Shown: one piece after another, positions 1 to 11,770 of the stretch
Layout: every line of letters starts with the position of its first letter
How positions within the stretch are numbered: the stretch's first letter is position 1
DNA from: Kocuria sp.
GTDB taxonomy: Bacteria > Actinomycetota > Actinomycetes > Actinomycetales > Micrococcaceae
Length of the DNA: 11,770 nucleotides
Assembly (NCBI GenBank): GCA_030453435.1
Contig: JAKDKI010000044.1
Span: 1 to 11,770 of the forward strand
Direction: 5' to 3'
Translations under genes and position numbers: made by a program
Notes under the pieces: model-generated
Database searches by the model: none
What the model was told of the DNA's origin: nothing
What the model saw: the letters and a program-made list of their open reading frames with translations, nothing else

Positions 1-901
1 TCCGCACCGCACCGCGGGCAAAGTGACGCTCCACGTAGTACTGAATGATGTTGAGGACGGTCGTGATGATCACGTACCACAGCGTGGCCACCAGCAGCAT
101 GGGAATGACCTCATTGGTGCGGGCGTAGATCACCTGGATCGTGTAGAAGAGCTCGTTGTACGCGAGCACGTAGACCACCGAGGTGCCCTTGACCAGGCTG
201 ATGATCTCGTTGAATGCCGGCGGCAGGATGGAACGCAGCGCCTGGGGCAGCACGATGTGCGTGGAGCGGCGCCAGCGCGGAATACCCAACGACGCCGCTG
301 CCTCCTGTTGGCCTTGGTCCACGGCCAGGATGCCACCGCGAATGATCTCCGCGGAGTAGGCGGCCTGGTGCAGCGTCAGCCCCAGCACCGCGGCGCCGAA
401 CTTGTTCACGATGTCCGTGGTGGGCACCTGGAAGAACGTCACGTCCGTGCCCGGAATACCCACGCTGATCACCTCGTAGAGATAGCCCACGTTGTACCAG
501 AGCAACAGTTGAACCAGCAGGGGCACGGAGCGGAAGATCCAAATGTAGAACCACGCCACCGAGGACAGCAGACCCGAATTGGACATCCTCATGAGTGCCA
601 GGATGAAGCCCAGGAGGAACCCGCCCACGGCCGCGATGACGGTGAGCAGCAGGGTGTTGCCCAGGGCGTTGATCACCGACTCCGCGGTGAGCCATTGGGC
701 CACCACGTCCCATTGCCATCGGGGATTGGTCAGGAGTGACCACACGATGCCGAACAGCACCAGTGCCACCAGCGCGGTCCCAACCCAGCGCCAGGGATTT
801 CGTGCGGGTACCACGGTCAAGGTCTCGGGCCGCTGTTGCGGTGTGCCGGGTGGCCCCGAGCGCTCTGTGTCCGCGGGCGCGGCGGTGGATGACGGTGTCA
901 C
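1..901 (-). CDS. Amino-acid ABC transporter permease (HisM/GlnP type), 3' end cut by window
   Basis: Inner-membrane permease subunit of a polar amino-acid ABC importer. It would pair with a periplasmic-type binding lipoprotein and an ATPase, neither of which is in the window. The 300 visible codons start at GTG 901, with AGGAG six bases upstream. Residues 1-35 are a Pro/Thr-rich cytoplasmic tail. Hydrophobic segments follow at about 40-57, 80-104, 112-136 and 167-182, and near 262-282. The ATPase-contacting EAA loop lies near residues 199-225, with EAAASLGIPRW, then LPQALRSILP and a conserved FNEIISLVKGTS tail. This loop is diagnostic for the HisM/GlnP family. No stop is reached, but the length suggests only a few residues are missing. 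A second in-frame GTG lies 21 bases upstream with a poorer ribosome site. The gene is separated from the TetR gene by 159 bases, so it is probably a separate transcription unit. Substrate cannot be told. Confidence 0.93.
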   Translation of the reverse strand, partial: MTPSSTAAPADTERSGPPGTPQQRPETLTVVPARNPWRWVGTALVALVLFGIVWSLLTNPRWQWDVVAQWLTAESVINALGNTLLLTVIAAVGGFLLGFILALMRMSNSGLLSSVAWFYIWIFRSVPLLVQLLLWYNVGYLYEVISVGIPGTDVTFFQVPTTDIVNKFGAAVLGLTLHQAAYSAEIIRGGILAVDQGQQEAAASLGIPRWRRSTHIVLPQALRSILPPAFNEIISLVKGTSVVYVLAYNELFYTIQVIYARTNEVIPMLLVATLWYVIITTVLNIIQYYVERHFARGAVR

Positions 902-1060
902 GCGATACTCCTGGACTGTCACGGGTAGGACTCACCGCCGGAGGCGGCAACGGCATTCACCGTAGGAGGTTCGGCGTCCGTGAACCCAAACGTCAGACAC
1001 AAAACTTCATAGTCGGGTTTTCAGCACGCGATCCGTCGTGAGTTGGAGACGGTATGAGTG

Positions 1061-1657
1061 TCACTCCCCACCCTCAACCGCCACGAGGTTCGTCAGCGTG
1101 GCGTGCACTCGGGCCGGCCAGTCGTCGCCCAAACTGCCAAACCTGGCCACGTGGGCGTAGGAAGCACCCAGCATGAAATCGATCACCACGTCCAGGTCAA
1201 CGTTCTCGCGGATCAGCCCGAGTTCCACATCGCGCTGCAGAAGGTTGCGAAGAATTTCCATGCGCGGCCTGATGATCTTGCGACGCAGTACTTCCGAAAT
1301 CGTTGAACCCGGGTCCTGAAGCAGTGTCAGAGCCACGCCCTTGCCCATGTCCTCGAACAGCACCTCGATGGCCTCGCGCATGCTGTCTTCCCAATCCCCC
1401 GAGGTGGGCGGGACCGGTGGAAGTGTGGAGTACACCTGCTCCAGAACGGCCTCGAGCAACTCGTCGCTGTTGTTGTAGCGACGATAGATCGAGGTCTTGG
1501 CAACGCCGGAGACTACCGCCACCGCTTCGATCGTGACCTTTTGGGGACCTGACTCGCGCAGCAGTTTCAACGCACCCGCCAGAATCTTCCGGTCGGTGCG
1601 AGCGGTGCGCGGGTCCGTTGCCCCTCCCTGTTCCGGCGTGGTCGTATCGGCCACCAT
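1061..1657 (-). CDS. TetR/AcrR-family transcriptional regulator
   Basis: A 198-residue predicted DNA-binding repressor, the usual size for the family. The N-terminal helix-turn-helix spans about residues 22-70, with the recognition region VSGVAKTSIYRRYNNSDELL, a classic TetR signature. The rest is the alpha-helical ligand-binding and dimerisation domain, about residues 75-195. The ATG lies two bases after the TGA of the upstream diiron gene, and I see no clear Shine-Dalgarno sequence, so translation is probably coupled. As the last gene of the lipid operon, it is the obvious candidate to control the divergent promoter at 5725-5813 in response to an acyl or lipid ligand. That role is inferred from position; the effector is unknown. 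The family call is secure. Confidence 0.95.
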   Translation of the reverse strand: MVADTTTPEQGGATDPRTARTDRKILAGALKLLRESGPQKVTIEAVAVVSGVAKTSIYRRYNNSDELLEAVLEQVYSTLPPVPPTSGDWEDSMREAIEVLFEDMGKGVALTLLQDPGSTISEVLRRKIIRPRMEILRNLLQRDVELGLIRENVDLDVVIDFMLGASYAHVARFGSLGDDWPARVHATLTNLVAVEGGE

Positions 1658-1659
1658 AC

Positions 1660-2475
1660 TCAGGCCGTTACGGTTTCCGACCGGTGAGACTCGCGCGCGT
1701 GCGCGGTCGCGTTATGGAAGATCCGCAGCCCGTCCATTCCCGGCAATCTGGCAATGTTGTGGTCCAGTCGATCAATCTCGCGGGCACCGTCCGCACCGCC
1801 GAAAAGCTCGCGCATCACATGGTCCACCTCGTCCGGGTCCATGACGCCGGACCCCACGGGCGCCCAGAATTTCCGCAGCGCGAACCGCGTGAGGCGCTGG
1901 GCCTTGCGGGAAGATTCCAAGCGGCGTCGGGCCTGTGTCGCGTAGAAAGCCACGTGACGCGATTCCTGCGCCGCGATCCGCTTGAGCAGAACCGCGAGCA
2001 CCGGGTGCTTCTCCAGATCGGCCAGCCGCCGGTAGGCAGCGACCGCGGACCACTCATTGGCCGCGCCCCACGCCATGTGGGTCGCAATGAAGTCCGCGCC
2101 CACCATGTTGGACAACAGCGACTGTTTGAGCGGCTTGAGCGCCTCGGACCACCCGAGCTTCATGCGTTTGGCCTTGAGCTCGTCGTAGTCGACCACGATG
2201 CCGTGCAAGCCCAGCACCTCGGCGAGCGCCTCACCATGCCAATACTCCTCGCGGTTCCACATGGTCATGAACGTGGAGACGTCCTTGTCCTGGTGCGAGG
2301 GAGTCACCAACATGTCTCGCATGTAGCACACCGTGTGGTACTCCACATCGCACATGTACCGCAGGCAGCGCAGCGTTTTCTCGGGCAAGGGACGGGTGAT
2401 GAATTCACCCATGTCCAGGTCAGCCCATTTCACTCGCTGCGAAGTCTCTGCGAACTTGTCGATGTTGAAGGCCAT
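1660..2475 (-). CDS. Ferritin-like diiron protein, putative lipid desaturase/oxygenase
   Basis: A 271-residue soluble, mostly helical protein with six well-placed diiron ligands: Glu45 (helix 1), Glu77-x-x-His80 (helix 2), Glu141 (helix 3) and Glu171-x-x-His174 (helix 4). This E, ExxH, E, ExxH order is that of acyl-ACP desaturases, AurF-type N-oxygenases and cyanobacterial aldehyde-deformylating oxygenase. The ligand spacing here (32, 64 and 30 residues) does not match any of these closely. I infer an O2-dependent enzyme acting on a fatty chain, given its place three bases after the acyl-reductase/HAD gene. Desaturation of an alkyl or acyl chain, or removal of an aldehyde carbon, are both possible. 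No membrane segment or signal peptide is seen. ATG 2475 is preceded by GGAGG at a long 12-base distance inside the upstream gene. A degenerate paralogue lies two genes upstream. Confidence 0.8.
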   Translation of the reverse strand: MAFNIDKFAETSQRVKWADLDMGEFITRPLPEKTLRCLRYMCDVEYHTVCYMRDMLVTPSHQDKDVSTFMTMWNREEYWHGEALAEVLGLHGIVVDYDELKAKRMKLGWSEALKPLKQSLLSNMVGADFIATHMAWGAANEWSAVAAYRRLADLEKHPVLAVLLKRIAAQESRHVAFYATQARRRLESSRKAQRLTRFALRKFWAPVGSGVMDPDEVDHVMRELFGGADGAREIDRLDHNIARLPGMDGLRIFHNATAHARESHRSETVTA

Positions 2476-2478
2476 GAC

Positions 2479-4737
2479 TCAGGCTTTCCTCCAGTCTTCG
2501 ATGGGCCAGTGCGACTTCTTGGCACGGCGGTACAACGGAAGATCGGGATTCACGGCGTACGCGTGCCCGATCTGGGACAGCCAGCTGGCATCGGCCACCG
2601 AGTCGCCGTAACCGTAGGAACGGCTCAGGTCGTAACCGTTCTCCTCCGCGTAGCGCTTGAGCCACTGGGCACGGGCCTCGTCCACGAGCGGCGGGGTGGC
2701 CAGGTAGCCGGTGAGCTTGCCGTCGGTGACTTCCATGCGTCCGGCCACCACGTGGTCGAACAGATCCGCGATGGGGCTCACCAACAGGTCCAGGGAACCG
2801 GTGACCAGCACGGTGTGGTGGCCGGCCGCGCGGTGCTCCTCGATCCGTTGCAGGGCCCCCGGTCGCAGGCTTTTCTCCATGGCCCGGCCCAACGAACCGT
2901 TCATGAGCTCTTCCACTCGTTCCACGGACACGCCCTCGTAGCGGCGCAGGAACGCGCGGATGAATTCACCGCGGTCGCGGCGTTCTGCCTTGACGTAAGT
3001 GGGTGCGTTGCCGAGCAGTTCGGTGATCTCGCCGGGCCACTGCACCGGGCTCAGTTCCCTGCGGCGCAGCTTGGCGTACTGCGTGATGATGTTGCCGGAC
3101 ACCACCGTGCCTTCGAGGTCGAAGATCGCCACCACGTCGGTTCCGGACTTGAGTCCGCGCGGTCGGGATTCACGCTTGCGCGAGGCGGCTTTCAAACGAC
3201 CGTAGGCGCGGGTCATCTCGGTGAGCGCTGGGAGATGTACGTTCTGCCAGTAGTCCCGCCAGTCGATGGCGCGCGGGTCGAAGTGCTGATCCTCGGGTGC
3301 GGACTCAGGAAGTGCCCGGTCCAAACGACGCGTGTGCGTATCGTCGAAAATCATTTCGGTGCGCGTGTAGTTCTGGTAGAGGTCCACGTAGGTGCGCAGC
3401 GACCCCAGACCTGTCTGCATCCGGTGCAGCGAGTTGGTCCACTCCCGGGTACGAGCCGTGGCGGGCAGGACGGCGCTCAGTTTGCCACCCGCGGCGGCGA
3501 GCTTCTCCTTGAGTGCGAGGCCGCGCTCCACGGCATTGTTGGCGGGGAACTTCCACTCGGGAACAGCAATGGGGTTTCCGTTGGAGTCCTCGAGCGGCTG
3601 TGCGAGGAAGAACTCCCGCACGTTCTCGTACATCTGGTGGAAGGGCAGGGGGTTCGAGGCCCCCGAGCACACCTGGTAGTAGGCCGCTTGCGGGTCGATA
3701 TCCGTTTCTTCGGTCAGCTCGCCGGACGGCGCTCGGTGCCCCTGGGTGACCAGGGCCACGATGGCATTGACCACGAAGTCCACCGGGATCACGTCTAGAA
3801 CGGAGTCGGGTAGACCCGGGAACTCGGGCAGCGCGCCCTTGGCATAGGCCATGATGAGCGGGTCCGCCACCTTGTAACCGTCGATCCAGCCCGGGAACGG
3901 GTAGCGCAGTGCGGATTCGATGATTGCCGGACGCACGATGGACAGCTGGTGTCCCGCGCCGGCCCACTTCTCCTCCGCTACACGCTCACCCAGGGCCTTG
4001 GTGAAGGTGTAGATGTCGGTCCAGCCCAGCGACTGTGCACGGGTGCGTCCGTGGTCGACCAGTCGTTCCTGGACCCATGCCTGCCGAGCCTCTTCCGCGG
4101 CGCGGGCCACTGACTTGGGACCTTCCTTGCCGAACTGGGAGGTGGCTTTCTCAATGAAGGACTGCAGCCGCTCCGGAGAGCGGGATTCCACCTGGGCGGT
4201 GTCCGCGGCACGGACCGCGGCCTGGAACTCCACGTCCCAGTCCACGCTGTGATCCACGGGTGCTTCTGGACGCAGGCCCTTGGCGATACCACCCACGTAG
4301 CACGTGGACACGTGCACTACGTGGGGGTTCTGGCCCGTTGCCCGCAGCGACTCGTAGAGGCCCACGGCGCCGCCCACGTTGGTCTTGAAGGCCTCATCGA
4401 TGGGCGGGTCAAAGGACACGGTCGAAGCGGAGTGCACGACCACGTCGAAAGGTTCCGTAATGCTCGCCAGACCGGTGAGATCGCCCTCGAGGACGCTCGT
4501 GCGCTCCGTGAAGATCTCCTCCGCACGTTCCTTCCCCACCGATTCACGCCACGTCTTGAACACGGGCTTGCGCAGCAGCTGCTTCAGTCGAGCCTGCCCG
4601 GACAGAGATCCCCTGGGCCGGATCACCGCGGTGACATGGATGTCGTCGTGGCTGGACAGCAAGCGTTCCAGGACCGCCTGCCCTAGGAACCCGGTGGCTC
4701 CCGTGAGCAGTACGCGCTTGGTGGTGGTCTGGGTCAA
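2479..4737 (-). CDS. Fatty acyl reductase (extended SDR) fused to HAD-IB phosphatase domain
   Basis: A 752-residue, two-domain enzyme. The N-terminal domain (about 1-360) is an extended short-chain dehydrogenase of the fatty acyl-CoA reductase/male-sterility group. It has the NAD(P) glycine motif TGATGFLG at 12-19, catalytic Ser144 in VHVSTCYVGG, and Tyr243/Lys247 in YTFTKALGE, a motif typical of alcohol-forming acyl reductases. A linker (about 360-530) leads to a HAD-IB hydrolase domain (about 533-752). That domain has nucleophile Asp540 in FDLEGTV, motif II VTGSLDLLV, and Asp712/Asp716 in GDSVAD followed by AVNPD. The usual second Asp of motif I is Glu542. The likely role is making fatty alcohol for the AGPS reaction. 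The HAD substrate is unknown; a lipid phosphate is a guess. I chose TTG 4737 because GGAGG lies six bases upstream; GTG 4803 would add 22 residues. Confidence 0.88.
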   Translation of the reverse strand: MTQTTTKRVLLTGATGFLGQAVLERLLSSHDDIHVTAVIRPRGSLSGQARLKQLLRKPVFKTWRESVGKERAEEIFTERTSVLEGDLTGLASITEPFDVVVHSASTVSFDPPIDEAFKTNVGGAVGLYESLRATGQNPHVVHVSTCYVGGIAKGLRPEAPVDHSVDWDVEFQAAVRAADTAQVESRSPERLQSFIEKATSQFGKEGPKSVARAAEEARQAWVQERLVDHGRTRAQSLGWTDIYTFTKALGERVAEEKWAGAGHQLSIVRPAIIESALRYPFPGWIDGYKVADPLIMAYAKGALPEFPGLPDSVLDVIPVDFVVNAIVALVTQGHRAPSGELTEETDIDPQAAYYQVCSGASNPLPFHQMYENVREFFLAQPLEDSNGNPIAVPEWKFPANNAVERGLALKEKLAAAGGKLSAVLPATARTREWTNSLHRMQTGLGSLRTYVDLYQNYTRTEMIFDDTHTRRLDRALPESAPEDQHFDPRAIDWRDYWQNVHLPALTEMTRAYGRLKAASRKRESRPRGLKSGTDVVAIFDLEGTVVSGNIITQYAKLRRRELSPVQWPGEITELLGNAPTYVKAERRDRGEFIRAFLRRYEGVSVERVEELMNGSLGRAMEKSLRPGALQRIEEHRAAGHHTVLVTGSLDLLVSPIADLFDHVVAGRMEVTDGKLTGYLATPPLVDEARAQWLKRYAEENGYDLSRSYGYGDSVADASWLSQIGHAYAVNPDLPLYRRAKKSHWPIEDWRKA

Positions 4738-4824
4738 CGGGATCCTCCGGAGGTAGGGGTGTTCTGGCACGCTCGTGGCGTGAAGACGAGGGCGGTTGGC
4801 CACCGTCTCCTTGGGTTCAACAAC

Positions 4825-5724
4825 TTAGAAAAGAGCGTAGCGGTTCACCACTTGATCGCGTTCGAGCGCCCTGCGCAGCGGTTCCGTACCGGCGGTCTCG
4901 TGCGTTCGTTGCAACGGTTCATCGGCTCGTTGCAGCAGTCGGTTGGTGTCGCGCACCGTGGGGCACAAGCTGACGACGAACTCTCGGAAGGCCCCCCGTG
5001 AGACACCCACCGGTCGCAGCGGATTGAAGCCAAAGGACACGTATCGGCGCGCAAAGGATGCCGCCCGGGGAGAGCGACGCACTCGCTCGCTTGTTTCCAC
5101 CGCTAAGAATCGTTGATGAACGGACTTGAGCTCGACCACGCGCCGAAGGAGGGCTGAAAGATCGGGATGGGCTGCGGCGTCGTCGAACGTCTCCAGGGCC
5201 GCTCGCACTGCGGCCTCGCGGGCCCAGCCGCGCGCCATCTGCCCGGCCACGACGTCCTCGCCGAAAAGGTTGGTCCACACGGAATCCGTCATGGGGGCCA
5301 GGTTGTCGAGCGCCCGTTCCACGCGGTCGAGGAGCAAGTGGTCGTGTTCCACAGGGCCGGAAACATCCTGGCCGTGTGCCTCGAGAACGGCCTGATAGGC
5401 ATCGGCGATCCAGTGGCGTTCGTAGGCCCACGTGGTGAGGAAAGCCGCGACGCGCGATTCCTTGTTCGTATAGCTGACCACCACGTGGCGGACCTGCCCC
5501 ATGGTGGAGCGTTCCACGTCCCACAGATAGCGCAGCTCTCGGAGCCGTTCCTCGCTCAACGGATTTTGGTGGAAGGCGGTCATATCGATGTCCCCGCGCA
5601 GGCTTCCCTGGGCGTCGCGGGTGAATTGTCGGACCTCGAAGGGAGTTCGTAGGACAAGTTCGTGGTCCGTGGGCCCGTACAACCTGCCCTGCCGGTGCAA
5701 TGCCAGGTAGGACTCCTCTGTCAC
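4825..5724 (-). CDS. Degenerate ferritin-like paralogue lacking half its diiron ligands
   Basis: A 299-residue protein alignable almost without gaps to the diiron protein at 1660-2475 across all four core helices; for example it shares the LRY..DVE and HP.L..LL.R segments. At the six ligand positions it keeps Glu71, Glu170 and His203. It has Arg103 and Ile106 in place of the helix-2 Glu and His, and Lys200 in place of the helix-4 Glu, so a normal diiron site is unlikely. It may be a non-catalytic partner subunit, a scaffold, or a protein with another cofactor. The reading frame is intact, which argues against a pseudogene. GTG 5724 has an AGGAGG just upstream (four-base gap). ATG 5772 would add 16 residues but has no clear ribosome site. 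It is the first gene of the minus-strand operon, 87 bases before the reductase start. The function is unknown. Confidence 0.78.
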   Translation of the reverse strand: MTEESYLALHRQGRLYGPTDHELVLRTPFEVRQFTRDAQGSLRGDIDMTAFHQNPLSEERLRELRYLWDVERSTMGQVRHVVVSYTNKESRVAAFLTTWAYERHWIADAYQAVLEAHGQDVSGPVEHDHLLLDRVERALDNLAPMTDSVWTNLFGEDVVAGQMARGWAREAAVRAALETFDDAAAHPDLSALLRRVVELKSVHQRFLAVETSERVRRSPRAASFARRYVSFGFNPLRPVGVSRGAFREFVVSLCPTVRDTNRLLQRADEPLQRTHETAGTEPLRRALERDQVVNRYALF

Positions 5725-5813
5725 TGTCCCTCCTCGATGACTCCGAGCAAAATCTGTGCCCGCACGGGCCATGAACCCGATTCGCTACGCCTACCGTAGT
5801 GTATCTTAGTGGC
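5725..5813. promoter_or_regulatory. Divergent promoter/operator region between the two lipid operons
   Basis: This short gap must drive both the minus operon and the plus operon. On the plus strand, TATCTT (5802-5807) ends six bases before ATG 5814, so a leaderless mRNA is likely. On the minus strand the same bases read TAAGAT (5808-5803), next to TACACT, so the two -10 elements may overlap. No convincing -35 was found. CTACG-N5-CGTAG (5785-5799) is a 15-base inverted repeat just upstream of the plus -10, and a candidate TetR operator. A second palindrome, GCCCG-CA-CGGGC (5758-5769), sits in the probable leader of the minus operon. The direct repeat TAGTG occurs at 5797-5801 and 5807-5811. 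All assignments are by eye. Confidence 0.5.
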
Positions 5814-6596
5814 ATGCTTACCGCTCTTGTGACCGGTGGAACGTCAGGCCTAGGAGCCGCGTTCGCACGCTCGTTAGCCCGTGAGGGCTTCAACCTGATC
5901 CTGGTGGCCCGCAACGAGGATCGGCTCCGGGAAGTAGCCGAAGATCTGGCCGGCGAGTACAGCATTCATGTGGAGGTCATAGCGGCAGATCTGTCCGACC
6001 GTGAACACGTGGAGCGCGTTGCACAGCGCCTGGCAGACACTTCAGCCCCCGTTGATTTGCTGGTCAACAACGCCGGTTTCTCGGTGGGAACACCCTTCTT
6101 GAGTGAGGACTTCTCCCCGCACGATGTGGGCACGGATGTCATGTGCCGCGCAGTAGCCCTGCTCTCCGGTGCCGCTGGCCGATCCATGATGCACCGTGGC
6201 ACCGGTTGGATCGTCAATATCGCCTCTATCGCCGGCTGCGTGACCATGGGCCAGTATTCGTCCATCAAGGCCTATGTCACGTCCATGACCGAATCGCTGG
6301 CGGTCGAACTGCATGGAACGGGCGTGCAGGTAACCGCCGTTCTGCCCGGCTGGGTGCGCACCGAGTTCCACAGTCGCGCGGGCATCGCGGGGTCCTCGAT
6401 CCCCAACTTCATGTGGCTCAATGCAGACAACGTCGCGGATGAAGCCCTCGCCGACGTCGCTCGGGGCAAGGTCATCTCGATTCCCACCGTCCGCTACAAA
6501 GCAGTTTTCACAGCGCTGCATCACCTGCCCCGCCCCACGGTACGTTGGATTTCTCGGCAGGTTTCCGGGGCACGCAAGCGCGAGAAGAAGGCCTGA
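5814..6596 (+). CDS. Short-chain dehydrogenase/reductase, candidate acyl/alkyl-DHAP reductase
   Basis: A 260-residue classical SDR. The Rossmann cofactor motif TGGTSGLG is at 7-14, an acidic turn Ala-Asp-Leu at 58-60, NNAG at 85-88, and the catalytic residues appear to be Ser138 in NIASIAG and Tyr148/Lys152 in YSSIK. Arg33 after strand 2 suggests NADPH preference. The Ser-to-Tyr distance is 10 residues rather than the usual 13, and the usual structural Asn near position 111 is not obvious (Met110-Cys111 instead), so the active-site loop is unusual. The mammalian acyl/alkyl-DHAP reductase is also an SDR. With the acyltransferase and AGPS directly downstream, reduction of the 2-keto group of alkyl-DHAP is my best inference. 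Start: ATG 5814 fits a leaderless transcript; GTG 5799 would add five residues and overlap the palindrome. Its stop is three bases before the next start. Confidence 0.88.
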   Translation: MLTALVTGGTSGLGAAFARSLAREGFNLILVARNEDRLREVAEDLAGEYSIHVEVIAADLSDREHVERVAQRLADTSAPVDLLVNNAGFSVGTPFLSEDFSPHDVGTDVMCRAVALLSGAAGRSMMHRGTGWIVNIASIAGCVTMGQYSSIKAYVTSMTESLAVELHGTGVQVTAVLPGWVRTEFHSRAGIAGSSIPNFMWLNADNVADEALADVARGKVISIPTVRYKAVFTALHHLPRPTVRWISRQVSGARKREKKA

Positions 6597-6599
6597 TCC

Positions 6600-7505
6600 A
6601 TGGCACCGCAGGACGATCAGCCGAACCCCCCTCAGGATCGGACCGACCGGTTTCGAGGGAAACACGCGCGCCGGCTCAACGAACAGCCGGGCCAGCCCAA
6701 GGAGCCGAGCGGTCGGGCACGCGGTAAGCACACCCGCCAGCCGGTCGAGCGGCCCCACATCATGGAGTCGCTGGAGGGGCCAGTTGCACAGGCCGATCCC
6801 GCTCCCCCGGCCCCGCCGGCTGAATCGGCCAAGGTAGGTACGGCCTACTACACACATACCGGCCGGAGGATCGCCCGGAAGATCGCACAAACCATCTTCT
6901 TCAAGGGTTTGGTCAATCGCCTGATCACCCGAACCAATGTGGTGGATCCCGCCGCGTTCGGTGTGAAGGGCGGCTGCGTAGTGGTGGCCAATCACTCGAG
7001 TCACCTGGATGCCCCGCTGGTCATGAGCGGGGTACCCCACTACATCTCCCGTTATCTGGCCACTGGTGTTGCCGCAGACTATTTCTTTACGGCCTGGTAC
7101 AAAAAGCTGTTCACGCAGTTGATCTTCAATGCCTTCCCCATTGACCGCACCGGAACCGGGGCGAACCGCGGCCTGTCCAAGAAGTTGTTGGCCGCGGGAA
7201 TCCCCATTTTGATCTTCCCCGAAGGCACACGCTCCAAGACCGGCAAGATGGCCCCCTTCAAGGTGGGCGCGGCCAGTTTGGCTCACTCGCTGGAGATACC
7301 CGTAGTGCCCGTGGCCTTGATCGGTGCCCACGAAGCCATGCCCAAGGATTCAAGCTGGCCGCGCCCCGGTAGGCCACCGGTTGTCGTTGCCGTGGGGGCG
7401 CCCCTACGAGCACGCGGAAACGAAACCGTTGCCGGGTTCAACGAACGCATCGAAGCAGCGGTTCGTGCACTGTACGCTTCGAACCGAAGCAAAATTCAAG
7501 ACTGA
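6600..7505 (+). CDS. PlsC-type acyltransferase, candidate DHAP or lysophosphatidate acyltransferase
   Basis: A 301-residue glycerolipid acyltransferase of the PlsC (LPLAT) family, transferring an acyl group to a glycerol-phosphate-type acceptor at the membrane. Motif I NHSSHLD contains His132 and Asp137 (HX4D, the catalytic pair). Motif II is FPIDRTG with Arg183, motif III FPEGTRSKTG at 206-215, and motif IV VPVALIG at 236-242. Residues 1-78 are an extra hydrophilic tail, rich in Pro, Gln and Arg and probably disordered. It contains RGKHARR (19-25) and RGKHTRQ (41-47), a repeated basic motif that could bind membrane phosphates. ATG 6600 has AGAAGG about eight bases upstream. The position between the SDR and AGPS genes suggests it supplies acyl-DHAP to AGPS, or acylates sn-2 of alkyl-glycerol-3-phosphate. 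The motifs do not separate these. Confidence 0.9.
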   Translation: MAPQDDQPNPPQDRTDRFRGKHARRLNEQPGQPKEPSGRARGKHTRQPVERPHIMESLEGPVAQADPAPPAPPAESAKVGTAYYTHTGRRIARKIAQTIFFKGLVNRLITRTNVVDPAAFGVKGGCVVVANHSSHLDAPLVMSGVPHYISRYLATGVAADYFFTAWYKKLFTQLIFNAFPIDRTGTGANRGLSKKLLAAGIPILIFPEGTRSKTGKMAPFKVGAASLAHSLEIPVVPVALIGAHEAMPKDSSWPRPGRPPVVVAVGAPLRARGNETVAGFNERIEAAVRALYASNRSKIQD

Positions 7506-7534
7506 ATACCCCCGAAGAAAGAGGTCGCACAGCA

Positions 7535-9211
7535 GTGGCACACGTAAAACACCAGAAATGGTGGGGCTGGGGCGAAGAAGGCGTTTTCTTCAATTACGAG
7601 AACAAGCCCGCTTTTGCACCCTTCGTCAAGGAGGCCATCGGGGTGACGCTGCGTCCGCGCGAGCGGGACACCGTGGATTTCTCGACCGCGAACGTTCCCG
7701 CTTCACAAGCTCCGGACAAGATTCTCGAGCTACTGGGCAACATCAGCGGCGCGGACAACGTGAGCACCGACGACGAGCTGCGTGTGGTCCACTGGGCCGG
7801 CAAATCCGTTCTGGAACTACTCCAGACATTGCGCAACGATTTTCACCGCATCCCGGATGTCGTGATCTACCCGGGCACCGAGGACGAAGTTGCTGCGCTC
7901 ATGCGCGCAGCGGTCGAGCACGATCTGGTTCTCATCCCCTTCGGTGGCGGCAGCAGCATCTCACGCAGCCTGCAGCCGGATCCTTCGGAAGATCGCTGCA
8001 TTGTCTCCGTGGACCTCGGCCGTCTCAACAAGGTCCTCGAGATTGACGAAACCTCAGGGCTCGCCACCATTCAGGCCGGTGTGCTCGGCCCCGACATGGA
8101 AGAGCAGCTCAATGCTCGCGGCTGGACCCTGGGCCACTTCCCGGACTCCTTCACGTACTCCACACTGGGGGGTTGGGCCGCGACTCGCTCCTCGGGCATG
8201 CAATCGGACAAGTACGGGGACATCGCAGACATTATTCGCGGGCTTCGCATGGTGCGTGCCACCGGAACCGTGGTGCTGCGGCCCTTGCCGTCCACTTCCA
8301 CGGGCCCGAGCTTGCGCGAAATGATCATCGGTTCCGAGGGGCGGTTGGGCATCATTACGGAACTGACCGTTCACGTCCATCGTTTGCCCGAGAAGCACCA
8401 GGTCATTGCTTACATGTATCCCACATGGCAGCAGGCGCTCACTGCAGTTCGACAGTTCACCGAAGCGGAGATTCCGCTCGCGTTCGCCCGTGTTTCCGAT
8501 GCGCACGAGACGGCTTTCTCGCTCGCAACGCAGAAAGAGCCGACGTCGACCAAGGGCAAGCTCGCGGCCAAGGGCCAAGAGGCACTCTGGGCCGTGATGC
8601 GTAAACGCGGCTGGGACACGGAAGACATGTGCATCTCTTACGTGTGTTTCGAAGGATCCCCCAAGAATGTGGAAGCGCGTAAGAAGGCGGTGTCCAGCAT
8701 CGCCAAGAAGAACGGGGCCATCGTGCTCGGTTCAGGCCCCGGGGCCCTCTACGACCAGAAGAAGTTCGACACCCCCTACCTGCGCGACTTCCTGCTCGAG
8801 CAGAACACCGTGGGTGACGTGTCCGAGACGGCAGCGCCCTGGTCCAAGCTCACCACGGTCCACAAGGCCGTCTACGACGCCGCCGAACGCGCCTATGCGG
8901 CCCTGGGCAAGAAGGGGTGGATCATGTCGCACATGTCCCACTCCTACCATTCGGGAGCTTGCCTGTACTTCACGTTCGGTTACGTTTACAACGACGAGAA
9001 CCCCTACGAGGAGTACCACACCGTCAAGAGTGCTATTCAGCAGGCATTCATCGACAACGGTGGCACACTGTCCCACCACCACGGTGTTGGCCTGGAGCAC
9101 CAGCCGTGGATGGAGCAGGACATTTCCCCCGAGGGCGCAGACATCATGCGAGCCTTGTTCACCAGCACGGACCCCGGGAACAACCTGAACCCCGGAAAGG
9201 TCATCTCCTAA
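7535..9211 (+). CDS. Alkylglycerone-phosphate synthase (alkyl-DHAP synthase), FAD-dependent
   Basis: A 558-residue flavoprotein of the vanillyl-alcohol oxidase superfamily. The family reaction is 1-acyl-DHAP plus fatty alcohol giving 1-alkyl-DHAP plus fatty acid, the ether-forming step. Marks of the subfamily: N-terminal KWWGWG (8-13); FAD-binding PFGGGSS (135-141); PDSFTYSTLGGWAATRSSGM (203-222), very close to the mammalian enzyme; GSEGRLGIITELTV (266-279); Arg319 in an FARVSD segment; YHSGACLYFTF (471-481), with a candidate catalytic Tyr; and SHHHGVG (513-519), the histidine cluster. The C-terminus ends NPGKVIS, typical of the superfamily. GTG 7535 follows GAGG by ten bases, and no better start is seen. 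It lies 29 bases after the acyltransferase gene, in the same operon. Some actinobacterial relatives are annotated AGPS without proven ether lipids, so activity is inferred. The family call is strong. Confidence 0.92.
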   Translation: MAHVKHQKWWGWGEEGVFFNYENKPAFAPFVKEAIGVTLRPRERDTVDFSTANVPASQAPDKILELLGNISGADNVSTDDELRVVHWAGKSVLELLQTLRNDFHRIPDVVIYPGTEDEVAALMRAAVEHDLVLIPFGGGSSISRSLQPDPSEDRCIVSVDLGRLNKVLEIDETSGLATIQAGVLGPDMEEQLNARGWTLGHFPDSFTYSTLGGWAATRSSGMQSDKYGDIADIIRGLRMVRATGTVVLRPLPSTSTGPSLREMIIGSEGRLGIITELTVHVHRLPEKHQVIAYMYPTWQQALTAVRQFTEAEIPLAFARVSDAHETAFSLATQKEPTSTKGKLAAKGQEALWAVMRKRGWDTEDMCISYVCFEGSPKNVEARKKAVSSIAKKNGAIVLGSGPGALYDQKKFDTPYLRDFLLEQNTVGDVSETAAPWSKLTTVHKAVYDAAERAYAALGKKGWIMSHMSHSYHSGACLYFTFGYVYNDENPYEEYHTVKSAIQQAFIDNGGTLSHHHGVGLEHQPWMEQDISPEGADIMRALFTSTDPGNNLNPGKVIS

Positions 9212-9236
9212 CGCCGTCTCTCGACAGTCACTTGCG

Positions 9237-9285
9237 CTGCTCCCCTGCTGCGATCCGAAACCTTTGGTTCGTACCAGGGGAGCAG
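9237..9285 (+). terminator. Hairpin between convergent genes, likely terminator of the AGPS operon
   Basis: An 11-base perfect inverted repeat, CTGCTCCCCTG (9237-9247) and CAGGGGAGCAG (9275-9285). The 27-base loop itself contains an imperfect inner hairpin (CCGAAACC/GGTTCG around 9255-9270). It lies 25 bases after the AGPS stop and is followed on the plus strand by TTCGTTT, a weak U-rich tail. It may also stop transcription from the acetoacetyl-CoA synthetase gene arriving from the right, though that side has no T-tract. Confidence 0.65.
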
Positions 9286-9361
9286 TTCGTTTCCTGAGCC
9301 ACCACGGAGGCGATGACACTTGGTTGCGTTACCGCCTCAATGTGGTGTCACAGCGCCCGAT

Positions 9362-11371
9362 TCATGCAGACGGGCGCGTTTTCCGAGCCGTGTATTCATT
9401 TGCGGTTCGGGCATACCAATCGAGGACCTCGGCATCCTCGGCGGTTGCACGATTGAGACTGCTTGGATCCGCACCCTGGAACAACTTTTTGACCGGAATC
9501 TCCAGTAGCTTGCCCGTTCGAGTCTTGGGAACGGCCGGGGCCTCAATGATTTCGTCCGGCACGTAACGCGGCGATATCTCGTCCCGAATGGCTGTCACGA
9601 TCCTTTCCCGCAGCTCATCCGTGAGGTTTGTTGCGGGGTCCGGGACTACGAAAAGCGGCATGTAGTAATCACCGCCGGCCAGCTCGGCACCAATCACCAT
9701 GGACGCCGACACCCCAGCCACCTGGTCCACCACGTGGGTGATGTCCGCAGAGCCCATCCGGATGCCGCCCCGATTGATCGTTGAGTCGGAGCGGCCATGC
9801 ACGATGAACGGGCCATCACTCAGTTGCGTAACCCAGTCCCCGTGTCGCCACACGCCCGGGAACATGTCAAAGTACGCCGACCGATATCTCGAGCCATCGG
9901 CATCGTTCCAGAAGTACACCGGCATGCTGGGTAGCGGTTGAGCGATGACCAGCTCCCCCACCTCATCCCACACACGTTCCCCGCGAGCGTTCCAGGACTG
10001 GGCATCCACGCCCAGGTAAGGGCCCTGGATCTCACCTCGGTACACCGGCTGGTAGGGGTTCGAGCCGATGAAGGCACTGGTGATGTCAGTACCACCGGAA
10101 TCAGATCCGGGCCGGACATTGTCGGACACCGACTCATATACCCAATCCCATGTGGAGTCAGGCAACGGCGACCCCGTGACCAGGATGGACTTCAACGCGG
10201 AGAAATCCTGGTGCACATTAGGAACCACGCCCGATCGTTCGATCATGGTCAGCACACCTGCTCCCGTGCCGAAGAACGTGGCTTTGTTCTTGGCCACCAA
10301 GTCTAGCGACTTCTGAGGACCGCCGAATGTGGGAGCGCCGTCGTAGGTGATGATCGTGGCGCCAGTGAGAAGAATGCCAACCAACATGTTCCACACCATC
10401 CACGTGGTGGCCACCGCGAAATAGGCGACATCGGTTGGGCCCAGACCAGCATGGAGGCCCAGTGCCTTGAGAAACTCCACCACCACGCCTCCGTGCGAAT
10501 GCACGATCCCCTTCGGTTTACCCGTGGTCCCGGACGAATACAGGATCCAGAGTGGATGTTCGAAGGGGACCTGCTCGTATGCGGGTTCCGCGGGTGAATT
10601 TATGATCTCCGAATAGCGCAGCGCATCAACCGGCAACTGCCCCACCCGACCGACGGGTTGTTGATCCACCACAATCAGGTGCTCCACGGTCGGCAATACG
10701 CCGCGCAGAGCCTGGTAGCAGTCGGTCATATCCCGCAGCTTGCCACCGAATTCATACCCGTCGACTGTGAAGAGGACTTTCGGTTCGATCTGGGCAAAAC
10801 GATCCGCGACGCCGCCCGGGCCGAAGTCGGTGTTCACCACGGACCAGATTGCGCCCACGGACGCGGCGGCCAAGAGAGCCACGGTCGTTTCCGGAATATT
10901 CGGCAAGACGCCGGCTACACGATCCCCGGGCACCACCCCGATCTCACGCAGTCTGCGGGCCACGGACGCAACCTGTGATTCCAGCTGACCCCACGTCAGG
11001 CGAGTGAATTCTCCACTCTCGTGCTCGCCTCTGATGGCAACGGCTTCAGGACGCGACCGCGCAGCGCGCAGCGTGTTCTCCGCGTAGTTCAGTTTGGCAC
11101 CGGGAAACCAGCGGGCGCCGGGCATCGACGCCCCATCCAAGACGACATCCGCAGACTCCGACGCAACGATGTCGAAGTAATCCCACACTCCCCGCCAGAA
11201 TTCCTCGGGGTACTCCACAGACCAACTGTGCAGGGAACGAAAATCGGCTATCTGGCGTCCGTTCCTGTTCGAGACCCACCGGGCAAAGTCAAACATTCGC
11301 GACGTCTGGACGTCGTCCTGAGAGGGAGTCCACAGCGGCGTCCGTTGGCTCTGACTGTTGATGGGGTTCAT
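9362..11371 (-). CDS. Acetoacetyl-CoA synthetase (acetoacetate-CoA ligase)
   Basis: A 669-residue ANL-superfamily adenylating enzyme. It would convert acetoacetate, ATP and CoA to acetoacetyl-CoA, AMP and PPi in the cytosol, feeding ketone-body carbon into lipid synthesis or beta-oxidation. The N-terminal cap has WFPGAKLNYAENTL (88-101), shared by acetyl- and acetoacetyl-CoA synthetases. The ATP-binding loop YSSGTTGKPKG covers about 278-288, an SGGTDI segment follows near 425-430, and GDW and GRSDSTINRGGIRMG mark the hinge. The catalytic lysine is Lys621 in KTRTGKLLE. Length and N-terminal pattern fit the acetoacetyl rather than the acetyl enzyme. ATG 11371 has GAGGAG nine bases upstream; an upstream in-frame GTG at 11410 would overlap the palindrome and lacks a good site. 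It is convergent with the AGPS operon, so a functional link to ether lipids is not implied. Confidence 0.88.
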   Translation of the reverse strand: MNPINSQSQRTPLWTPSQDDVQTSRMFDFARWVSNRNGRQIADFRSLHSWSVEYPEEFWRGVWDYFDIVASESADVVLDGASMPGARWFPGAKLNYAENTLRAARSRPEAVAIRGEHESGEFTRLTWGQLESQVASVARRLREIGVVPGDRVAGVLPNIPETTVALLAAASVGAIWSVVNTDFGPGGVADRFAQIEPKVLFTVDGYEFGGKLRDMTDCYQALRGVLPTVEHLIVVDQQPVGRVGQLPVDALRYSEIINSPAEPAYEQVPFEHPLWILYSSGTTGKPKGIVHSHGGVVVEFLKALGLHAGLGPTDVAYFAVATTWMVWNMLVGILLTGATIITYDGAPTFGGPQKSLDLVAKNKATFFGTGAGVLTMIERSGVVPNVHQDFSALKSILVTGSPLPDSTWDWVYESVSDNVRPGSDSGGTDITSAFIGSNPYQPVYRGEIQGPYLGVDAQSWNARGERVWDEVGELVIAQPLPSMPVYFWNDADGSRYRSAYFDMFPGVWRHGDWVTQLSDGPFIVHGRSDSTINRGGIRMGSADITHVVDQVAGVSASMVIGAELAGGDYYMPLFVVPDPATNLTDELRERIVTAIRDEISPRYVPDEIIEAPAVPKTRTGKLLEIPVKKLFQGADPSSLNRATAEDAEVLDWYARTANEYTARKTRPSA

Positions 11372-11391
11372 GACGCATATCTCCTCAGCGC

Positions 11392-11411
11392 GGCGTGTCC
11401 TGGAACACACC
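11392..11411. promoter_or_regulatory. Imperfect 20-base palindrome upstream of acetoacetyl-CoA synthetase
   Basis: GGCGTGTCCTGGAACACACC reads as two arms, GG(C/T)GTGT(C/T)C and its inverse. It lies between the ribosome site of the synthetase gene and a weak minus-strand -10-like CAGAAT (11418-11413), where a repressor would block transcription. No good -35 was found. Operator function is a guess. Confidence 0.3.
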
Positions 11412-11516
11412 TATTCTGCTGTACTGCGCAAGGGTCCCCGACGGCGAAACGCACATCGGAGATGAATGTTCACAAATACCACCGTGTCCTTGAGGCGACC
11501 TCCCAAACCGGCGCGG

Positions 11517-11594
11517 CTGTTAAACAACGAAAGCCATGGGCAGCTGCCCCGCTGATGCAGAGCAACCACTCATGGCTTCGACATGCCTGTTAAA
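11517..11594. other. Structured non-coding segment bounded by CTGTTAAA repeats
   Basis: This lies within the 348-base non-coding stretch between the synthetase start and the 5S rRNA. Direct repeats CTGTTAAA are at 11517-11524 and 11587-11594. Between them an inverted repeat, CGAAAGCCATG (11528-11538) and CATGGCTTCG (11571-11580), pairs with one bulged A, enclosing a 12-base perfect palindrome GGGCAGCTGCCC (11538-11549). I tried to fold it as a tRNA and could not. It could be a small RNA, a processing or terminator structure of the rRNA operon, or a remnant of a small mobile element. I see no convincing coding sequence in 11372-11598; the long plus-strand frame entering from 11021 is a shadow of the synthetase gene. 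Confidence 0.35.
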
Positions 11595-11598
11595 TGCG

Positions 11599-11638
11599 AA
11601 GAGGAGGGGTACCAGCGTGAGCCGGTACCCCTCCTCTT
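11599..11638 (-). terminator. Second hairpin downstream of the rRNA operon
   Basis: A 15-base perfect inverted repeat, AAGAGGAGGGGTACC (11599-11613) and its complement (11624-11638), with a 10-base loop. It is the strongest hairpin in the window. On the minus strand it lies about 80 bases after the 5S end and is followed by GCATTT, only a weak U-tract. It is probably a backup terminator protecting the genes to the left from read-through of the rRNA operon, and could work in both directions. Confidence 0.7.
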
Positions 11639-11664
11639 GGCCACCGCGCTACATAGGCGATGTT

Positions 11665-11710
11665 AAAAGCGTTGAGGGGACACACACCAACAGGCGTGTA
11701 TCCCCTCAAC
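11665..11710 (-). terminator. Intrinsic terminator just after 5S rRNA
   Basis: GTTGAGGGGA (11671-11680) pairs perfectly with TCCCCTCAAC (11701-11710). The stem continues inward through ACAC/GTGT with two mismatches to a small loop. In the minus-strand direction the stem is followed by GCTTTT, a short U-run. It begins about ten bases after the 5S 3' end, the expected place for the rRNA operon terminator. Confidence 0.85.
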
Positions 11711-11719
11711 TAACGTTAA

Positions 11720-11770
11720 TTCCGGCGGTGACTTACTCTCCCACACCCTCCCGAGTGCAGTACCATCAGC
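11720..11770 (-). rRNA. rrf: 5S ribosomal RNA, 3' part, continues beyond window
   Basis: About 51 bases of the 3' half of 5S rRNA. On the minus strand it reads GCTGATGGTACTGCACTC, then GGGAGGGTGTGGGAGAGTAA, then GTCACCGCCGGAA. This matches the conserved 3' half of actinobacterial 5S rRNA (helices IV, V and the closing helix I strand). The exact 3' end is uncertain by one or two bases. The 23S and 16S genes should lie beyond the right edge. Confidence 0.93.

Follow-up and report, generated by a model that had tools for sequence, protein, structure and literature searches.

The peroxisomal ether-lipid pathway of mammals comprises the fatty acyl reductase (FAR) FAR1, GNPAT, the alkylglycerone-phosphate synthase AGPS, an acyl/alkyl-dihydroxyacetone phosphate (DHAP) reductase and PEDS1. 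In the aerobic plasmalogen producer Myxococcus xanthus, the MXAN_1674-1676 operon encodes AGPS (MXAN_1676, with only a minor role in this bacterium), a FAR1-GNPAT-like fusion (MXAN_1675) and an epimerase/dehydratase, the elb operon includes the HAD protein ElbB, and the vinyl ether is made by CarF (PMC9131029). According to the same 2022 review, almost all aerobic bacteria lack plasmalogens, myxobacteria being exceptional, and CarF homologues beyond this group have been reported in Leptospira only (PMC9131029). Plasmalogens are also made in bacteria, including some Actinobacteria, by an anaerobic two-gene PlsA/PlsR operon (PMC9702350), and AGPS homologues in Actinobacteria and other phyla were already reported by an environmental survey (PMC11868695); these papers, like those cited below, are drawn on through excerpts. 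Here we describe a seven-gene cluster in contig JAKDKI010000044.1 of Kocuria sp. (assembly GCA_030453435.1; positions 1 to 11,770, the whole stretch analysed, are called the window). We read this cluster, with a probability of roughly 55%, as a TetR-controlled AGPS-type ether-lipid pathway in which two ferritin-like proteins, FL1 and FL2, would make the vinyl ether. Its core is of a kind known from animals and myxobacteria, here in a widely conserved actinobacterial arrangement, and the FL1/FL2 step is the novel part.

In comparison with the mammalian pathway, the Kocuria cluster has candidates for the same four early activities, but its FAR carries a HAD domain, its acyltransferase is of the PlsC type, and FL1 and FL2 stand in place of the membrane desaturase. 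As in M. xanthus, AGPS, FAR, an acyltransferase and a dehydrogenase are encoded together, the HAD protein of the myxobacterium belonging to the elb operon; on the other hand, the excerpts of PMC9131029 mention neither a ferritin-like pair nor a TetR regulator for the M. xanthus operons, and the Kocuria cluster has both. The PlsA/PlsR system differs from the cluster in being a reductive route from diacyl lipids. No match to PF10520 (CarF/PEDS1, Lipid_desat) was found among the cluster proteins, nor elsewhere in sets of 30 and 196 genomes (0/30 and 0/196), and no control genome matched either. DUF2229 (PF09989), which we take to be a domain of the anaerobic PlsA, was found in none of 21 cluster-bearing genomes, with 4 of 14 controls matching. 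The name of the PlsA domain does not occur in the excerpts of PMC9702350.

The order of reactions that we infer for the core would begin with acylation of DHAP by the PlsC-type protein, while FAR would convert acyl-CoA to fatty alcohol. AGPS would then exchange the acyl for the alkyl chain on DHAP, and the short-chain dehydrogenase/reductase (SDR) would reduce alkyl-DHAP to alkyl-glycerol-3-phosphate, which would enter normal phospholipid synthesis. Beyond the core, FL1, often together with FL2, would then use O2 to form a 1'-double bond in the alkyl chain, yielding a plasmalogen. The HAD domain probably strips phosphate from a lipid intermediate, a step put forward with low confidence. We regard the reading of the core as an AGPS-type alkyl-ether lipid pathway as very probable because of its synteny, the co-occurrence of its genes, the existence of PlsC-AGPS fusions and the conserved AGPS residues. 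An earlier note on this DNA, made from the letters alone, had proposed such a pathway; on this evidence it stands as the best reading of the core, with lipid production still something that we infer.

The AGPS protein carries the FAD_binding_4 and FAD-oxidase_C domains and shows long similarity to solved alkyl-DHAP synthases (ADPS), namely those of Dictyostelium (PDB 2uuu; E 7e-109, residues 55-557, 368 bits) and guinea pig (PDB 4bby; E 2e-82, residues 25-549, 281 bits). R419, Y578 and the histidine triplet H615-H617 of the guinea-pig enzyme, presumably its active-site and catalytic residues, align with identical residues in the window AGPS. These alignments clearly place the window AGPS among the homologues of structurally solved alkyl-DHAP synthases. 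It could be argued that the protein has another FAD-dependent function of the glycolate/lactate oxidase type, within a fatty-acid remodelling locus, since its best NCBIfam model is GlcD; however, that model is far under its cut-off (150 vs 568 bits), the next class of PDB matches after ADPS reaches only 86 bits (D-lactate dehydrogenase), and the C-terminal half also aligns with ADPS. We consider this the least probable of the accounts weighed here.

In two genomes (loci L102 and L104) one open frame, 801 and 796 residues long, respectively, encodes the acyltransferase in its N-terminal part and AGPS in its C-terminal part, which parallels the mammalian GNPAT-AGPS complex (PMC9131029). The PlsC-type protein is named here as the proposed DHAP acyltransferase, in the role of GNPAT; an sn-2 (AGPAT) role is also possible. 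Because of these fusions we set as very unlikely a hydrocarbon or wax pathway, in which FAR would give aldehyde or alcohol, FL1 would be a diiron enzyme resembling aldehyde-deformylating oxygenase, and AGPS would be a redundant neighbour. The best NCBIfam model for SDR is mycolate reductase, at 168 bits vs 380 required.

The arrangement of the core was surveyed by scanning a FAR-HAD alignment over genome contigs, which gave 378 confirmed relatives; the best 80 were kept, many of them from the same genera, so that this is a FAR-HAD survey and not an AGPS survey. Genes were called by our own script; some FL2 genes escaped it but were seen with tblastn. The core order, with AGPS, PlsC and SDR divergent from FAR, was seen again in 72 of the 80 loci, and for this reason we do not ascribe it to chance. 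The eight exceptions are three contig ends (L003, L029 and L042), one locus without AGPS or SDR (L069), and four loci of Propionibacteriaceae (L016-L019) with AGPS and SDR in which PlsC was not found. SDR is present in 78/80 loci. A further locus, L101, when read gene by gene, showed a co-directional run FAR>SDR>PlsC>AGPS.

A second survey covered 196 genomes drawn from the class, searched with AGPS, FAR-HAD and FL1. AGPS-like proteins (E up to 1e-60) were present in 88 of them, 25 with a close type (at least 53% identity, a cut chosen once the gap down to 40% had been seen) and 63 with a distant type only (31-40%). FAR-HAD was found in 49 genomes, in 20 of them at 51% or more. This closer form occurred in 18/25 genomes with close AGPS vs 2/171 without. 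The earlier note had named rare joint occurrence of the two arms as a refutation of its reading. That rarity was not found for close AGPS, with FAR-HAD lying within 6 kb in 17 of the 25 genomes (7 divergent and 10 co-directional, the latter with a gap of ~1.6 kb), but the distant type lacks the arrangement, none of these proteins in the 63 genomes being seen within reach of FAR-HAD among the matches listed. In one genome (G218) close AGPS and FAR-HAD are on different contigs, and seven have no FAR-HAD of at least 51%, of which five carry a 43-47% copy at a distance or on a different contig and two have none. Any AGPS-like protein was present in 42/49 genomes with FAR-HAD vs 46/147 others. FAR-HAD was present in 24/28 genomes with strong FL1 vs 25/168 others, unlinked cases included; this group of 28 omits the four weaker (G125, G176, G205 and G220) of 32 genomes matching FL1. 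Fisher tests on the 196 genomes treat them as independent and overstate the evidence. As a separate observation, Streptomyces sp. NBC_01549 carries, ~12 kb from the AGPS of its cluster, another stretch of distant similarity to AGPS (26%; L071:18685), beyond which lies an SDR-like stretch.

FAR-HAD matches NAD_binding_4 at 154 bits, and its Sterile domain reaches 32.9 bits, just below the cut-off of 35.4; a FAR structure (PDB 7eoz) matches it over 29-530. All 14 of 14 aligned rows share the cofactor motif and YxxxK without variation. Asp562 in the C-terminal HAD-IB domain is likewise invariant in these rows, and by its motif we take it to be the HAD nucleophile. Motif I reads DLEGT in 10/14 rows (Kocuria, Propionibacteriaceae and the like) and DLDGT in 4/14 (including Brachybacterium and Devriesea). 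Since the residue two places after Asp562 is Glu in some rows and Asp in others, the activity of the HAD domain is uncertain, and its phosphatase step may differ between rows or be lost.

FL1 and FL2 gave no Pfam match above cut-off. Against the acyl-acyl carrier protein (ACP) desaturase family PF03405, FL1 scored 20.8 bits, under the cut-off of 22.7, and 35 of 40 FL1 relatives matched it at E up to 0.1 (best 8.8e-06); FL2 had not even a sub-threshold Pfam match to acyl-ACP desaturases. The predicted models of both proteins are all-helical and nearest to ferritin-like diiron proteins, with folds closest to soluble acyl-ACP desaturases at 8-20% identity in structural alignments. All six diiron-ligand-type residues are kept in 65/65 FL1 rows, so that on its predicted model FL1 shows both the fold and the ligand pattern of these desaturases and presumably binds metal. 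In FL2 the full set was found in 0/53 rows, with K or R at position 77 in 51/53. The two are paralogues, FL2 being a probable non-catalytic partner. The description of two ferritin-like proteins in the earlier note thus agrees with the predicted folds, though not with any Pfam match above cut-off, and its term "paired diiron-type proteins" holds for FL1 but not for FL2, which has lost the metal ligands. FL1 differs from castor stearoyl-ACP desaturase and M. tuberculosis DesA2 in being sub-cut-off in Pfam and paired with a ligand-lacking paralogue. One protein (L100) is FL2 by score and FL1-like in the tree, where several FL2 rows are flagged for long branches.

As to the co-occurrence of FAR-HAD with ferritin-like genes raised earlier, FL1 lies close to FAR in 43 of the 80 loci, but the FL pair is optional and sometimes located elsewhere in the genome. 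For FL1 genes located away from the cluster (L081-L100), the same neighbours recur within a lineage (L085-L089; L093-L096; L097-L098), and no partner family shared across lineages was seen. In L090/L091, six of seven neighbours have Pfam families (peptidyl-tRNA hydrolase, RNase H, PMSR, flavin reductase-like, PLDc_N/SHOCT and ABC transporter) and one has none; the PLDc_N/SHOCT gene adjoins FL2 in L091. Viral contigs searched with FL2 gave no relative. In Kocuria soli, FL2 is present (L013:3736-4605) with no FL1 match in the genome, so that FL2 may there be an orphaned paralogue or have a different role.

Fold, ligand pattern, an optional yet co-occurring distribution and reports of dimethylacetals led us to a tentative proposal, to which we give slightly less than even odds: FL1, often with FL2, would desaturate the alkyl chain at its 1' position in an O2-dependent manner, giving plasmalogens. 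This role is newly proposed here, the earlier note having assigned none to the FL pair. More tentatively still, FL1/FL2 could represent a third way of forming vinyl ethers, unrelated to the membrane enzymes CarF/PEDS1 and to the anaerobic Pls route: a soluble diiron desaturase of alkyl ethers that depends on O2 and often has a catalytically dead partner.

Dimethylacetals have been reported from oxygen-breathing relatives. Four Subtercola species contain 6.9-17.0% iso-16:0 dimethylacetal and 3.2-11.0% anteiso-15:0 dimethylacetal, in a paper that also cites a publication of 2000 for such compounds in aerobic Microbacteriaceae (PMC5945732). In Kineococcus rubinsiae, gas chromatography-mass spectrometry identified 2.9% anteiso-15:0 dimethylacetal, which MIDI had called 14:0 2-OH; dimethylacetals were taken by its authors as indicative of plasmalogens (PMC7472656). 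In Frigoribacterium adelgis and F. faeni, 14:0 2-OH was found together with anteiso-15:0 aldehyde/dimethylacetal, both being absent from the remaining two species of the comparison (PMC12823222). The dimethylacetals of aerobic Frigoribacterium, Subtercola and Kineococcus fit the vinyl-ether reading. FL2 homologues occur, among the matches listed, in F. faeni (P0273), Glaciihabitans tibetensis, Galbitalea soli and several Frondihabitans; Subtercola was not among the 120 of 787 matches listed in a protein search with Frondihabitans FL2. Searches by title and start of abstract in open-licence PubMed Central found no report of ether lipids in Kocuria and no paper linking FL1/FL2-type genes to vinyl ethers. 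The terms looked for do not occur in the Subtercola genome paper PMC6518244, and no gene is put forward for the dimethylacetals of aerobic Microbacteriaceae or Kineococcus in the excerpts of the literature examined.

Several observations weigh against plasmalogen formation by the cluster. Salinibacterium metalliresistens, with the full cluster, has 94% of its profile in three ordinary fatty acids (PMC10713820), which leaves little room for dimethylacetals; Lacisediminihabitans profunda has <1% 14:0 2-OH (PMC7033078), and Frondihabitans is said to be without dimethylacetals (PMC5945732). In addition, the core occurs without FL genes: 12 of 30 genomes searched, hand-picked and mostly without FL genes near FAR, have no FL1, 11 with no match at all and one (G009) with an FL2-type match only. 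Kocuria varians NBRC 15358, for example, has the core and gave no FL match, whereas Kocuria carniphila CCM 132 and Herbiconiux ginsengi have both FL1 and FL2. Nor does a desaturase-like fold fix the substrate. These last points would favour a cluster that makes only saturated alkyl-ether lipids, with FL1/FL2 acting otherwise, for example in mid-chain desaturation or hydroxylation of a lipid or alcohol, and this rather unlikely alternative would also suit the 14:0 2-OH given as a hydroxy acid in several relatives (PMC9287328, PMC7033078), at 17.0% in F. faeni and 4.2% in Glaciihabitans tibetensis (PMC7033078). However, the corresponding peak of K. rubinsiae was the dimethylacetal, and MIDI values for "2-OH 14:0" in Subtercola boreus and S. 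frigoramans (10.4 and 9.9; PMC9287328) are near those for anteiso-15:0 dimethylacetal (11.0 and 10.3; PMC5945732). No such fit was found for S. vilae (15.6 vs 3.2) or S. lobariae (3.9 vs 9.7) in the same two papers, and for S. lobariae PMC5945732 lists a separate 10.3 of 14:0 2-OH. Among nine Kineococcus strains tabulated, 14:0 2-OH was above trace in two (PMC7601052). Routine MIDI "14:0 2-OH" in Microbacteriaceae and Kineococcus may be partly anteiso-15:0 dimethylacetal.

If plasmalogen formation by FL1/FL2 is true, aerobic actinobacteria would be a large, overlooked group of plasmalogen producers, and the cluster could explain plasmalogen-type signals from oxygen-breathing relatives. The cluster offers a set of genes open to testing, with a candidate for a new class of vinyl-ether desaturase among them, and gives cause to look again at "14:0 2-OH" peaks in routine MIDI profiles.

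Analysis of the region between the two arms revealed a palindrome, CTACG-N5-CGTAG, that lies just upstream of SDR in each of the 16 Kocuria loci examined. The copy in the window is followed by a -10-like sequence so close to the SDR start that the transcript would be leaderless. A site matching in 9 or more of the 10 fixed bases, at the same place, was found in 39 of the 78 loci with SDR, the other 39 having 6-7 matching bases; as background, 18 of 4000 random 170-base stretches reached 9 or 10 matches, real sites included. A linked TetR homologue (tblastn match >60 bits) accompanied the palindrome in 38/39 loci and was present in 0/39 loci without it; the single palindrome locus lacking one (L002) is at a contig end. 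Three Plantibacter loci (L073, L077 and L080) have 9/10 matches at the SDR site and a second, perfect copy just upstream of the linked tetR gene, near 3950-4060, consistent with tetR autoregulation. On this phylogenetic footprint the palindrome is the probable TetR operator and TetR the probable regulator of the cluster, which would bind there and repress both arms.

The seven open reading frames (ORFs) occupy two divergent arms (Table 1), all at the places and on the strands given in the earlier note, and Pfam matched the domains it had named (TetR_N/TetR_C_11, NAD_binding_4 with HAD, adh_short, PF01553, and FAD_binding_4 with FAD-oxidase_C). Three of the genes (FAR-HAD, FL2 and SDR) probably start later than the longest ORF. 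For FAR-HAD the start is probably TTG 4737, because the N-terminal stretch of the longest ORF is present in 0/13 aligned relatives; Brachybacterium-type rows have an N-terminal extension of their own. Comparison with L001 and L002 points to GTG 5724 as the probable start of FL2, and SDR probably starts at ATG 5814, since GTG 5799 begins on the last base of the conserved palindrome.

Table 1. Features of the cluster in the window, with positions counted from its first base.
Feature	Position	Strand	Remarks
TetR-family regulator	1061..1657	-	PF00440/PF16859 (TetR_N/TetR_C_11)
FL1, diiron desaturase-like protein	1660..2475	-	ligand-type residues E45, E77xxH80, E141, E171xxH174
FAR-HAD, fatty acyl reductase with HAD-IB phosphatase-like domain	2479..4737 (longest ORF to 4803)	-	
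FL2, FL1 paralogue without full ligand set	4825..5724 (longest ORF to 5772)	-	probable start
Palindrome CTACG-N5-CGTAG, probable TetR operator	5785..5799	.	phylogenetic footprint
-10-like TATCTT	5802..5807	+	6 bases before ATG 5814; sequence only
SDR, proposed alkyl-DHAP reductase	5814..6596 (longest ORF from GTG 5799)	+	PF00106
PlsC-type acyltransferase, proposed DHAP acyltransferase	6600..7505, start uncertain	+	PF01553
AGPS, alkylglycerone-phosphate synthase homologue	7535..9211	+	PDB 2uuu, 4bby matches

FL1 shares 96% identity with a protein of Kocuria atrinae, and in Kocuria carniphila (L001) the gene order is the same as in the window, with FAR 98% identical. An acetoacetate-CoA ligase gene (9362-11410), convergent with AGPS, adjoins AGPS in some Kocuria loci only and was therefore not counted as a member of the cluster. 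On the other side, an ORF cut by the window edge (2-922) reads, by eye, like an ABC-transporter permease, and also adjoins the cluster in L001 and L003.

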